A stretch of 64,000 nt of DNA, from assembly GCF_040362765.1 (NCBI RefSeq), contig NZ_BAABWK010000002.1:186001-250000 (forward strand), given 5' to 3'. A program made the translations under genes and the position numbers. How positions within the stretch are numbered: the stretch's first letter is position 1; each line of letters begins with the position of its first letter. Shown piece by piece: positions 14,065 through 19,067 of the stretch. The notes beneath the pieces were generated by a model. That model worked only from the letters and a program-made list of their open reading frames with translations. It did not search any database and was not told the DNA's origin. The DNA comes from Pyruvatibacter sp. HU-CL02332 (GTDB lineage: Bacteria > Pseudomonadota > Alphaproteobacteria > CGMCC-115125).

Positions 14065-14484
14065 CTACCAATGACCAACATTTTCCATGGATGCCCATGG
14101 CTCAGCGGGTTCCTTGGAGGCGCCTTTCTGCAGCAGCTCGACAGATACATTATCCGGTGATCGGACAAAGGCCATGCGCCCATCGCGTGGCGGGCGGTTG
14201 ATTGTTACGCCTGACGCCTGAAGTTTTTCACAGATCGCGTAGATGTCATCGACTTCATAAGCCAGATGGCCAAAGTTACGTCCTTCGCCAAGCTCTTCGT
14301 CATCCCAGTTGTGGGTCAGTTCGACCTGGGCTGACTCGTCGCCGGGCGCGGAGAGAAACACGAGCGAGAAACGCCCATCCTCGATGTCAAAGCGGCCGCG
14401 CTGCTCCAGCCCAAGATGATCGCAGTAGAAGGCCAGGGAAGCATCCAGGTCACGGACACGAACCATTGTGTGCAGGTATTTCAT
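14065..14484 (-). CDS. Glyoxalase-fold (VOC) protein, lactoylglutathione lyase-like
   Basis: A 139-residue vicinal-oxygen-chelate protein. MKYLHTMVRVRDLDASLAFYCDHLGLEQ carries the first metal histidine. VELTHNWDDEELGEGRNFGHLAYEVDDI carries the expected Glu and His. VRSPDNVSVELLQ ends the fold with the last Glu. The order matches glyoxalase I (GloA), which isomerises the methylglyoxal-glutathione hemithioacetal. The E. coli DPDGY motif is SPDN here, so a different thiol or substrate cannot be excluded. First gene of the leftward run toward yceI. Confidence 0.85.
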   Translation of the reverse strand: MKYLHTMVRVRDLDASLAFYCDHLGLEQRGRFDIEDGRFSLVFLSAPGDESAQVELTHNWDDEELGEGRNFGHLAYEVDDIYAICEKLQASGVTINRPPRDGRMAFVRSPDNVSVELLQKGASKEPAEPWASMENVGHW

Positions 14485-14620: not shown

Positions 14621-15361
14621 ATGGCAACGACACTCAAGGACTATGTGGATCAGGCAAAGCGCGTTGTCGTCTTTACCGGCGCTGGTATTTCAACTGAATC
14701 CGGCATCCCTGACTTCCGCAGTCCGGGTGGGCTGTGGACACAGAATAAGCCGATCTACTTTCAGGATTTCATGGCTTCTGAAGCCATGCGTATTGAAGCC
14801 TGGCAGCGGAAATTCAACATGGATGACACCTTCACCAATGCTGAACCCAATGCCGGTCACATGGCGATTGCTCGGCTGGTGCAAAGCGGCAAGGTCACGT
14901 CGGTCATTACCCAGAACATCGACAATCTGCATCAGGATTCAGGCATTCCCGATGACCGTATCGTCGAACTGCACGGCAATACGACTTATGCAAAGTGCCT
15001 GGATTGTGGCGGGCGTCATGAAATCGAGTTCGTGCGTGCAGGCTTTGAAGAAGACGGGCTCCCGCCACCCTGCAGCAAGTGCAATGGCATTCTGAAGACG
15101 GCAACCATCTCGTTTGGTCAAAGCATGCCGGAGGAAGAAATGCTGCGAGCAGAAGCAGCCACCCTGGAGTGCGATCTGTTTATCGCCATTGGCTCATCGC
15201 TTGTTGTGTATCCCGCTGCAGGGTTTCCGATCATTGCCAAGCAAAACGGCGCCCGGCTGGTCATCCTCAACCGCGAAGAAACCGAACTGGATGAGATTGC
15301 AGATCTTGTCCTGAATACGGAAGCCGGGCCAACGCTGTCGGCGCTGCTTCCCCACAACTAA
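14621..15361 (+). CDS. NAD-dependent protein deacylase, Sir2 family
   Basis: A 246-residue sirtuin that removes acyl groups from lysine using NAD+. The NAD pocket GAGISTESGIPDFRS begins at residue 20, and TQNIDNLHQ at 97. The catalytic His118 lies in ELHGN. The zinc site is complete: C126, C129, C151, C154 (CLDC / CSKC). GSSLVVYPAAG and ILNREETELD complete the Rossmann fold. The Tyr/Arg pair that marks desuccinylases of the CobB/SIRT5 class is not evident, so acetyl or other acyl preference is open. Convergent with the PAS_5 gene. Confidence 0.95.
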   Translation: MATTLKDYVDQAKRVVVFTGAGISTESGIPDFRSPGGLWTQNKPIYFQDFMASEAMRIEAWQRKFNMDDTFTNAEPNAGHMAIARLVQSGKVTSVITQNIDNLHQDSGIPDDRIVELHGNTTYAKCLDCGGRHEIEFVRAGFEEDGLPPPCSKCNGILKTATISFGQSMPEEEMLRAEAATLECDLFIAIGSSLVVYPAAGFPIIAKQNGARLVILNREETELDEIADLVLNTEAGPTLSALLPHN

Positions 15362-15372
15362 TCCTGTCGCGC

Positions 15373-15963
15373 TCAGCTTGGTGTCATGGCGACCAATGGC
15401 TCAGCCATCGCCTCGGCATCACGAGGCGTGGTCAGCTCGCAATCTACGGGCAGCAATGTGCGCGGGTCGTAGACGGTTCGGCGTTGCAGTTCCCCAACCA
15501 GAATATCTTTACGTGGTTCGGTAAGGGGCATCTCCGGCATCGGTGTGTCGTTCATCAAGAGCAGGTAGCGATCATGAACACCGTCCTCGTTCCCCACCGG
15601 CATCATGAACTGTTCAATGAGAACCGCAGTGCCGTCGCGTCGGTGATAGGCGCGCAGTGACTGGGTAAGGTTGTGATGCTTAAAGATGTGCTCGTAGAAC
15701 CGCTCCAGCAAGTCATGTTGCGTACTAGGATATGCATTTTTGACTTCGCGCCCGGTCGCGTCTGCACCGAACGACTCCACCAGAGCCGTGCCTACCAGCG
15801 TTATCCGATAGGTAAGGTCGGGCATACGGCGGATCATGACAATGTTAGGGAGAAACGGGCGCATCTGAAACGGCCCGAACTGCGAGGTCGTGGGAAACAA
15901 TGCGTCGCCGCGAGCTTTGAGCCACGCCTGCAGTGCCTGTTTTGAATCGTCCGAGTGCAGCAT
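15373..15963 (-). CDS. PAS_5-type PAS domain protein (tandem copy B)
   Basis: A 196-residue protein (ATG 15963; a GTG at 15966 is also in frame). It is closely related to the upstream neighbour: both share LGPFQMRPFLPNI-like (here FGPFQMRPFLPNI), YRITLVGTALVESFGADATGR, and RRTVYDPRTLLPV with TTPRDAEAM. The PAS fold has no attached output domain and no membrane segment. It lies 80 bases downstream of copy A, in the same direction as the halohydrin-dehalogenase-type gene. Function unknown; a small-ligand sensor is the simplest guess. Confidence 0.75.
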   Translation of the reverse strand: MLHSDDSKQALQAWLKARGDALFPTTSQFGPFQMRPFLPNIVMIRRMPDLTYRITLVGTALVESFGADATGREVKNAYPSTQHDLLERFYEHIFKHHNLTQSLRAYHRRDGTAVLIEQFMMPVGNEDGVHDRYLLLMNDTPMPEMPLTEPRKDILVGELQRRTVYDPRTLLPVDCELTTPRDAEAMAEPLVAMTPS

Positions 15964-16046
15964 CACTTGCGCTTGTTACATTTGGTGTTGCAACGCAGAG
16001 TAGAACTGGCTGGTGAATAACTCGTTATGATCATATGTCGGGTCGG

Positions 16047-16637
16047 TCACCCCTTAAACGCTGTGAGCTTTTCCCGCATCTGCGCGGCGTCTCTTGGCGT
16101 AGTTGCAAAGCATGCAACGGGCAGCAGCGTTTCGGGGTGGTACACGGTGCGCTCTTCGAGGCTGCCCAGAGCAATGGTCCGATTGGGATCGCTGCGCGGT
16201 CGCTGGGGCAGGGGAACGTTGTAGGCCAGCAGCACGTATCTATCGTGCGCACCATTTTCATCGCTCAGTGGCACCATGAGTTGCTCGATTGTAACGAGGG
16301 CGCCTGTTCCCTTGCGTTCATAAACCCGAACTGAGTGGCTGATGTACTGATTGTTGAAAAGCAACTCATAGAAGGCGCTAAGTTCGGCATACACATCATC
16401 GGGATAAACCTCGTCCAGAAACCTACCCGTAGCATCAAACCCGAATGCCTCAACCAGACCGGTTCCCTGCAGGGTCACCTTGTAACGACCCTCCGGTGCC
16501 TTCCGATACATTGCAATGTTGGGCAGAAAGGGGCGCATCTGGAACGGCCCAAGCTGGGACGCTTTCGGCATCAACTGATCACCACGCGCATCGAGCCATT
16601 TGCTCGCGAGTTGCTGTATGTGATCAGCACGGAGCAT
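16047..16637 (-). CDS. PAS_5-type PAS domain protein (tandem copy A)
   Basis: A 196-residue paralog of the next gene, with LGPFQMRPFLPNI, YKVTLQGTGLVEAFGFDATGR, then ERTVYHPETLLPV and TTPRDAAQM. Its ATG follows directly after the stop of the halohydrin-dehalogenase-type gene with no intervening base, so the two are surely cotranscribed. No output domain is fused. Clear block identity with copy B indicates a tandem duplication followed by divergence. Confidence 0.75.
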   Translation of the reverse strand: MLRADHIQQLASKWLDARGDQLMPKASQLGPFQMRPFLPNIAMYRKAPEGRYKVTLQGTGLVEAFGFDATGRFLDEVYPDDVYAELSAFYELLFNNQYISHSVRVYERKGTGALVTIEQLMVPLSDENGAHDRYVLLAYNVPLPQRPRSDPNRTIALGSLEERTVYHPETLLPVACFATTPRDAAQMREKLTAFKG

Positions 16638-17369
16638 CTAGGCCCACCCGCCGGACGCGGCAATCACCTGACCGGTAAAGAACCCGCCATCCTCGCTGGC
16701 CAGCTGAGCAACCATCGCGGCCACCTCCTCGGGTTTGCCGAGGCGGCCAAGAGGAATGTTCCTGAGAATCTTGGGTGCCTTGTCCGGGTCCGCCATCAGG
16801 TCAGGCGGGAAATAGTCCGGGTTCGCTACAAAGTTAGGCGCAATGGCATTGACCTGCACATTGGATGGACCCAGCTCCTTGGCCAGTGCCTTTACTGCCG
16901 CATTCATGGCACCGCGCGCGGCGCAATACATGGCGTAGTTGGGCAGACCGTTCAGCGGGGCAGCCGAAGTGAGGAAAACAATCTTGCCTTCCTTGCGTGC
17001 CTTCATGTGGCTTGCAACGTGGGACGCAAAGTCAAAAGGCTTCACGACCAATGCTTCCAGGGTGTCGCGCAGAACATCGGAGGCAATGTCCTGAAGTGGC
17101 GCGCGGATGGCGGGGTAAGCATCATTGCTGGCCAGAAGGTCAATCTGACCTTCCTTGCCCATCACATGTTCTACGACGTCCGCAGCACTGTGTTGGGTGA
17201 GGGCGCTTATGTTTCCCGCCAAAGATTCAAAGGCAGATCGCTTGTCTGCGTCTGAAAACACGGGATCGACGGCAAAGACCCTATAGCCGTCATTGGATAA
17301 TCGTTTTGCGATGGCATCGCCTACAAAGTGAGTGGCGTCGGTCAGGATGGCGATACGTTTGTCGGTCAC
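16638..17369 (-). CDS. Halohydrin dehalogenase-type SDR (HHDH family)
   Basis: A 243-residue protein of the short-chain-dehydrogenase fold lacking the usual TGxxxGxG NAD motif. In its place is T10-x4-F15-x-G17 (TDATHFVG). The catalytic set is S135-x12-Y148-x3-R152 (SAAPLN...YCAAR), with Arg instead of the usual Lys. These two patterns together define halohydrin dehalogenases, which convert vicinal halohydrins to epoxides without cofactor and can reopen epoxides with cyanide, azide or nitrite. The halide-site loop reads P178-N179-F180, like PNY in HheC. SNDAY at 81 matches the family's SND. The start is GTG 17369. It heads an operon with two PAS_5 genes. Function is inferred from motifs only. 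Confidence 0.82.
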   Translation of the reverse strand: MTDKRIAILTDATHFVGDAIAKRLSNDGYRVFAVDPVFSDADKRSAFESLAGNISALTQHSAADVVEHVMGKEGQIDLLASNDAYPAIRAPLQDIASDVLRDTLEALVVKPFDFASHVASHMKARKEGKIVFLTSAAPLNGLPNYAMYCAARGAMNAAVKALAKELGPSNVQVNAIAPNFVANPDYFPPDLMADPDKAPKILRNIPLGRLGKPEEVAAMVAQLASEDGGFFTGQVIAASGGWA

Positions 17370-17468
17370 GAAAAAGGCCTTGCATTGGGAAATGACTGAG
17401 GCAGGTTAACGCGACTTCAATTCTACGCAAACGAGTGATTTGCGTGTACGCGATGGGGAAGAACGAAC

Positions 17469-19067
17469 ATGAGCGAGTGGTGGCAAGGTGCCGTCGTCTA
17501 CCAGATCTATCCGCGCAGCTATATGGACACGGATGGGGACGGCGTTGGTGATCTTGAAGGCATTCGGCGCAAGCTCGACTATGTTGCCTCTCTTGGCGTG
17601 GACGCAATCTGGCTATCACCGATCTACCCGTCACCAAACAATGACTTTGGGTATGACGTTGCCGACTATGTGAATGTTGATGCGGCCATGGGGGGTATGG
17701 CTGCATTCGATGCGCTGCTTGAAGAAGCCCATGCGCGCGGTTTGAAAGTCATTCTGGATCAGGTCCTGAGCCACACGTCCGACCAGCATGCCTGGTTTCA
17801 GGAGAGCCTGACGTCAAAGGACAACCCCAAGTCCGACTGGTATGTGTGGACCGAAGCACGCGAAGACGGTACACCGCCCAACAACTGGCTGGCAGCCTTT
17901 GGCGGGGCTTCATGGTCATGGCACCCCCTGCGCCGGCAATACTACTTCCATCAGTTCCTGCGGACGCAGCCCAAGCTGAATTTCCACAATCCCGATGTGG
18001 TTGAGGCGGTGCTGAACGTATTGCGTTTCTGGCTCGACAAGGGCGTGGACGGGTTCCGGCTTGATGTTGCCAATTCCTATGTGCACGACGCCTCCCTTGG
18101 GGACAACACACCCGTTCCCAAGGAGAAGCGCTCAGCCCTCTCCTGGAGCCACCCAGCCCGCCTGCAGTTTCATGACCATGATTGGAACCAGCCGGAAAAC
18201 GTCGCCATCATGACCCGCATCCGCGACGTGGTGGACAGCTATGAAGATCGACTGGTGTTTGGCGAGTTTGCCGCAGGTGAGAAGATCCTCGGCCAATATG
18301 CGGGCGGCGACGACCGGCTACACACCGCATACACATTCACGCTGTTGGATGCTGCCAACCTCGAGCGCTCGGTCTTTGATCATTACTACAGCCGCATCGC
18401 CGGACCGGTGGAAGACCTGTTCCCGTGTGTGACCTTTTCCAACCACGATGTGGCCCGGCCCGTCACACGCTGGTCCAAGGGCCGTGACAAGGCGCAGGTC
18501 GCCAAGCTCGGCATGGCGCTCCTCATGTGCCTGCGCGGCACGGCCTTGATGTATCAGGGCGAAGAGCTGGGTCTCGACGACATTGATGTCACCCGCGAGC
18601 AGATACAGGACCCGTTCGGCACGTTGTATTTCCCACACTTCAAGGGCAGGGACGGGTGCCGCTCTCCCATGCCGTGGGCGCCGGACGTCCGCTATGCGGG
18701 GTTCTCGACTGTTGAGCCGTGGCTGCCCGTTGGGCCGGAGCATCCCGCCCTGTCAGTCAGCACTCAGGAAGCAGACACTGGCTCGACACTGGCGTTTTCC
18801 AAGCAAGCGATTGCTCTGCGCAAGGCGCACCCGGTTTTGCAGACCGGTGACATCACACTGCTTGAAACGTCAAACGACGTGCTGGCCTTCACCCGAAGTG
18901 ACGGAGCTCAGACCATGACGTGCGTGTTCAATTTTGGCGATGAAGACGCAACCATCGACACCAATGCTGTCCTCTCCCCAGAGCTGACCTTAGGCAAGGC
19001 TGGCCACGATGCGGGTCAGGTGACAGTTGGCCCGCTGGGGGTCTTTGTCGGGATGAATGCTGAGTAG
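17469..19067 (+). CDS. GH13 alpha-glucosidase
   Basis: A 532-residue alpha-amylase-family glycosidase, probably cytosolic, acting on maltose-like or sucrose-like alpha-glucosides. WWQGAVVYQIYPRSYMDTDGDGVGDL opens the TIM barrel. DQVLSHTSDQH, the nucleophile Asp in GFRLDVANS (about residue 198), the acid/base Glu in VFGEF (about 264) and FSNHDVAR (about 326) form the GH13 active site. QPKLNFHNPDV is typical of the alpha-glucosidase subfamily. The start is ATG 17469 after GGGGAAGAAC. It is divergent from the HHDH-type gene with 99 bases between them; no sugar regulator or transporter is adjacent. Confidence 0.93.
   Translation: MSEWWQGAVVYQIYPRSYMDTDGDGVGDLEGIRRKLDYVASLGVDAIWLSPIYPSPNNDFGYDVADYVNVDAAMGGMAAFDALLEEAHARGLKVILDQVLSHTSDQHAWFQESLTSKDNPKSDWYVWTEAREDGTPPNNWLAAFGGASWSWHPLRRQYYFHQFLRTQPKLNFHNPDVVEAVLNVLRFWLDKGVDGFRLDVANSYVHDASLGDNTPVPKEKRSALSWSHPARLQFHDHDWNQPENVAIMTRIRDVVDSYEDRLVFGEFAAGEKILGQYAGGDDRLHTAYTFTLLDAANLERSVFDHYYSRIAGPVEDLFPCVTFSNHDVARPVTRWSKGRDKAQVAKLGMALLMCLRGTALMYQGEELGLDDIDVTREQIQDPFGTLYFPHFKGRDGCRSPMPWAPDVRYAGFSTVEPWLPVGPEHPALSVSTQEADTGSTLAFSKQAIALRKAHPVLQTGDITLLETSNDVLAFTRSDGAQTMTCVFNFGDEDATIDTNAVLSPELTLGKAGHDAGQVTVGPLGVFVGMNAE

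Follow-up and report, generated by a model that had tools for sequence, protein, structure and literature searches.

The open reading frame at positions 16638 to 17369, on the reverse strand of the 64,000-nucleotide stretch of DNA analysed here (the window), very probably encodes a cofactor-independent halohydrin dehalogenase (HHDH), presumably of the broad A type. The 243-residue product, translated from a GTG start, is assigned from its motifs, its matches in the PDB and its position on the A/C side of a family tree, and is a further member of an already known family rather than a new family. It adds one more motif-verified HHDH, and a candidate biocatalyst, to that family. Its conserved gene neighbourhood further suggests, for the A-type HHDHs of these bacteria, a long history of vertical inheritance under purifying selection. 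This old syntenic setting is relevant to what HHDHs do in nature, presumably haloalcohol detoxification and degradation, a role that a 2024 article gives only as an assumption (PMC11536340).

HHDHs are distinguished from the oxidoreductases of the short-chain dehydrogenase/reductase (SDR) family by two motifs, T-X4-F/Y-X-G and S-X12-Y-X3-R, in place of the T-G/A-X3-G/A-X-G and S-X10-14-Y-X3-K of the SDRs, according to the relevant sections of two publications (PMC11976700; PMC4989007). The original prediction had placed both HHDH signatures in this protein and taken them together as the mark of an HHDH, a reading that agrees with these published definitions, and the translation reproduces them residue for residue. 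Motif 1 reads T10-D-A-T-H-F15-V-G17 (positions 17319 to 17342, reverse strand) and would form the nucleophile pocket that replaces the NAD(P)-binding glycine-rich loop (PMC11976700, in part). Motif 2, the predicted catalytic set S135-x12-Y148-x3-R152, spans positions 16914 to 16967 on the same strand, and its mechanism is described in a section of PMC4989007. The classical NAD(P)-dependent SDR signature of TGxxxGxG with Ser-Tyr-Lys is absent, with F15 substituting for the middle Gly and R152 for the Lys. A P178-N179-F180 loop had likewise been proposed to match the halide-site region. It is present, within a stretch that continues to Y186-F187 (16809 to 16838, reverse strand), and lines up with P-N-Y in HheC, which starts at P175, in the loop where P175 and L178 are listed as nucleophile-pocket residues in the section concerned of PMC11976700. 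The genome itself contains 40 SDR-like loci, and among the 39 examined (C2:1014499 was left out) the window gene alone carries both motifs; motif 1, sought near the N-terminus, occurs in one of the 39, and motif 2, sought anywhere in the reading frame, in two. The combination of motifs in the window gene is not due to chance. The second-best match in the same genome (G000:C2:415700; 35% identity) was rejected as an HHDH, being an ordinary SDR with T-G and S-Y-K.

The ten best sequence matches in the PDB are all HHDHs by name, headed by 6a41 (‘dehalogenase’; 202 bits), with chains of HheC and HheA at 136 to 122 bits. Next in rank are 8xxb and 7b73, which are deposited as SDRs but contain both HHDH motifs and fall among the HHDHs in the tree. 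Among ordinary SDRs the top score in the search is 94 bits, higher than those of the G-type chains that are named as HHDHs (90, 90 and 86 bits), and therefore score alone is insufficient to define the family. Curated family names were also discarded as a means of identification, as no NCBIfam family matches the window protein above its cut-off and Pfam returns only adh_short and adh_short_C2. Similarly, the AlphaFold2 model (pLDDT 92.6), built on an alignment in which most rows are ordinary SDRs, superimposes on 6a41 with a Z score of 33.7 and on a FabG with 33.0. HHDH and FabG chains lie within one Z unit of each other, and the fold was rejected as proof of an HHDH because FabG chains score equally well; the predicted model agrees with an HHDH without deciding between the two.

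A tree of 92 proteins was built from 15 chosen ordinary SDRs and 77 HHDH-side rows, of which 69 are genome loci, six are PDB stretches and the other two are the window protein and the plasmid HheA. All 15 SDRs have Gly at aligned position 15 and Lys at 152, whereas the HHDH-side rows have Phe, Tyr or Trp at 15 in 74 of 77, Arg at 152 in 74 of 77 and Asn at 179 in 73 of 77. Both motifs are present in their strict form in 65 of these rows, and the remaining 12 depart from them, for example through Trp at position 15, through Ser or Ile at position 10, or because the Tyr or Arg is missing. The tree was computed by a quick method with SH-aLRT support only, without bootstrap, and the program flagged long branches and odd composition. 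The 15 SDRs separate from all other rows with a support of 99, and the window protein falls on the HHDH side. Support is 100 for the grouping of the B and D rows and 89 for the A/C side, while the genus of the window protein, itself supported at 100, joins genes of another family (f10) at only 82 to 85. The smallest well-supported sets that contain the window protein are its own genus. Judged by path, the closest rows beyond the genus come from f10 and include the gene of genome G394. The window protein groups with this gene at a support of 82 and separately from the B and D rows (100), in a tree from which types E, F and G are absent. With the SDRs split off at 99 and the B/D rows set apart, the tree supports the placement of the protein as an HHDH rather than an SDR, and as neither type B nor type D, although, as its references cover types A to D, it provides no full subtype scheme. 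The phylogeny suggested with the original prediction thus places the protein within the HHDHs, as far as references of these four types reach, and not outside them.

Among characterised enzymes, HheA3 from Parvibaculum lavamentivorans DS-1 (PMC4989007, in the section concerned) is probably the closest in kind. In genome G394, one of 20 SDR matches has both HHDH motifs, and its product and the window protein share 50% identity. There are strong grounds to equate this gene with HheA3, of which the window gene is then likely an ortholog. The two share the glyoxalase, sirtuin and divergent GH13 neighbours; they differ in half of their residues and in the PAS_5 genes found between HHDH and sirtuin, which are confined to the genus of the window as far as was seen. 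The best solved match, PDB 6a41 (‘Dehalogenation enzyme’), shares 43% identity with the window protein, but lies in another branch of the tree with rows of family f67. HheC (PDB 1pwx; 35% identity) has the catalytic set, the T-x4-F-x-G motif and the P-N-aromatic loop in common with the window protein. In contrast, it has 254 residues, with a C-terminal extension described in the pertinent part of PMC4989007 as found in HheC alone among HHDHs, while the window protein stops at residue 243. The terms ‘dehalogen’ and ‘dehalogenase’ do not occur in the main texts of PMC4110880, PMC3368416 and PMC10915500.

In characterised HHDHs, the Ser orients the substrate, the Tyr serves as the base and the Arg lowers the pKa of the Tyr, and the departing halide enters the pocket that accommodates NAD(P) in SDRs, as set out in a section of PMC4989007. 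By analogy with these relatives, S135 and Y148 of the window protein would bind a vicinal haloalcohol through its hydroxyl group, R152 would lower the pKa of Y148, and Y148 would take up the proton. The resulting alkoxide would expel the halide as the epoxide closes, and the halide would sit in a pocket made of T10, F15, G17 and the N179-F180 loop, equivalent to the NAD(P) site of SDRs. The reverse reaction, in which an epoxide is opened by halide, azide, cyanide and similar nucleophiles, would also be expected. In vivo, the enzyme may detoxify naturally occurring haloalcohols and hand on the epoxides to hydrolases whose genes lie at other sites in the genome; another contig carries two adjacent reading frames with an epoxide-hydrolase N-terminal domain (G000:C1:935052-936598; L219 and L220). 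Detoxification of haloalcohols or epoxides is the best guess as to the native role.

The HHDH gene lies within an ordered group of genes in the window, comprising a glyoxalase-family gene (14065 to 14484, reverse strand; PF00903), a sirtuin (SIR2) gene convergent with the HHDH (14621 to 15361, forward strand; PF02146), two PAS_5-domain genes (15373 to 15966 and, directly downstream of the HHDH, 16047 to 16637, both on the reverse strand; PF07310), the HHDH itself, a divergent GH13 alpha-amylase-family gene across 99 bp (17469 to 19067, forward strand; PF00128) and antiporter-type membrane subunits. The glyoxalase, sirtuin and GH13 genes recur in related genomes. PAS_5 matches also adjoin the HHDH gene in three other genomes of the genus, and none was found in the f10 stretches read. 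No sigma-70-like promoter was detected between positions 15300 and 17600.

The gene is present in all four genomes sampled from the window's family and order, which represent one genus, at identities of 100, 89, 76 and 89%, the last being a fragment at a contig end. Comparison with the 89% ortholog gave a dN of 0.08 and a dS of 1.29, and with the 76% ortholog a dN of 0.18 and a dS of 1.74, with dS near saturation; the gene is constrained by purifying selection. Family f10 is represented by 40 genomes, 27 of which have a match at E <= 1e-30. In the stretch read, the gene is accompanied by sirtuin and GH13 matches in 20 of these 27 (in one of which the HHDH gene is split between two contigs), by GH13 only in two, by sirtuin only in two and by neither in three, though for most f10 loci the flank read was just 1.5 kb long and missing neighbours are not proven absent. 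The three f10 genomes with neither neighbour have a more distant HHDH copy (39-42% identical). As the f10 counterpart in G394 has the same neighbours, the HHDH gene looks old, vertically inherited and chromosomal, and this setting points to a native role.

The original prediction regarded HHDHs as a small group with few known members, a view that has become outdated. Motif searches had uncovered 37 new HHDH genes in 2014 and 26 more by 2016, according to part of a 2016 review (PMC4989007), and matches at E <= 1e-30 occur in 48 of the 385 genomes sampled from the window's class. The 53 HHDH-like segments from the class-sample loci and the plasmid include 47 with Ser-Tyr-Arg, three with Ser-Tyr-Gln, two with Ser-Pro-Arg and one with Ser-Ala-Arg, and none with Lys. 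Four of 398 genomes match in a sample of the phylum, two of them already in the class sample. Six records match among plasmids, and the one read in detail is annotated as a haloalcohol dehalogenase. A scan of a genome collection returned 53 loci, and of the 60 segments scored from 50 of these, 59 have Lys at position 152; the sole Arg belongs to a fragment from the window gene's own genus (L001).

These data bear on two alternative accounts of what the gene is and how it arrived. That the product is an ordinary NAD(P)-dependent SDR oxidoreductase which has lost the classical motifs would fit its SDR fold, its two adh_short Pfam matches and a structural match to FabG as close as that to HHDHs. 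Nevertheless, F15 and R152 stand where every one of the 15 compared SDRs has Gly and Lys, and both the PDB ranking and the tree place the protein with HHDHs, which makes this account extremely improbable. Recent acquisition for xenobiotic degradation, as for the HheA, HheB and HheC of epihalohydrin degraders, has precedent in the family (PMC4989007, in part). In Microbacterium sp. J1-1 (L115), a plasmid carries an HheA that is almost the same in sequence as PDB 4z9f and 1zmo; it has both motifs, is 33% identical to the window protein and lies between an epoxide hydrolase and a glycerol kinase gene with transposases nearby, placed as a catabolic gene would be. In contrast, no epoxide hydrolase or glycerol kinase was found among the neighbours of the window gene, and the 11 neighbouring proteins scanned (one of which matches nothing) gave no match to a mobile-element family. 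The G+C content of the gene (0.579) equals that of the whole window, and its presence in all four genomes sampled from the order and its synteny in f10 further argue against such an origin, which is very unlikely.

A third account concerns function and overlaps with the preferred one as to family. Here, an old chromosomal HHDH scaffold would perform a different native job, such as ring opening or closure of an endogenous epoxide, perhaps in connection with the enzyme encoded by the divergent GH13 gene, with dehalogenation as a side activity. This is possible, if rather doubtful. It draws on purifying selection, on the retention of sirtuin and GH13 beside the HHDH in those 20 f10 genomes, and on the divergent arrangement of HHDH and GH13 in 25 of 26 distinct genomes (one locus having no GH13 match), although these genomes were picked for an expected GH13 match and four further f10 loci without GH13 were left out. 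Spacing, with starts extrapolated from the alignment over 26 regions in which G394 is listed twice, is about 94-143 bp in 24 genomes and 517 bp in one. Plain vertical inheritance, however, can also conserve gene order, and the catalytic residues of the protein are complete. Moreover, beyond the two syntenic families no recurrent partner gene was recognised in 45 loci by crude calling of reading frames, which missed the HHDH cluster itself in eight of the 45; the widest cluster of non-HHDH neighbours within the fetched flanks comprises seven proteins in five families. Nor was an inverted repeat common to the 26 HHDH-GH13 intergenic regions found, with a script that in effect required about eight paired bases. 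A shared operator was rejected, given that repeats occur in only four of the 26 regions (L136, L137, L138 and L144). It is tentatively proposed that in the genus and the syntenic family the gene is an ancient chromosomal housekeeping HHDH with an endogenous substrate, co-regulated with GH13. If true, genes of this kind would have given rise to the HHDHs of xenobiotic degraders.

Within the window, the intergenic region between HHDH and GH13 contains an inverted repeat whose two 7-base arms match exactly and are separated by 7 bases (17425 to 17445). It is absent from two relatives of the genus at six bases, and equally good repeats arose in 45 of 1000 shuffles; for these reasons it was dropped as an operator.

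Several related loci depart from the typical HHDH form. In genome G398 (L158/L161), the match next to the sirtuin gene covers only residues 131-243 of the HHDH, and no GH13 match occurs within 13 kb; this HHDH gene is possibly truncated. Three HHDH-side proteins (L105, L106 and L108) have the catalytic Tyr replaced by Ala or Pro. In family f98 (L096, L097 and L102), HHDH-like genes form a tandem pair, one with S-Y-R and the other with S-Y-Q and no motif 1 aromatic; the latter is perhaps a catalytically altered partner. Finally, three homologues in family f40 (L123, L124 and L127) combine a T-x4-W-x-G form of motif 1 with an intact S-Y-R, and such Trp-type proteins would be overlooked by motif mining based on Phe or Tyr.
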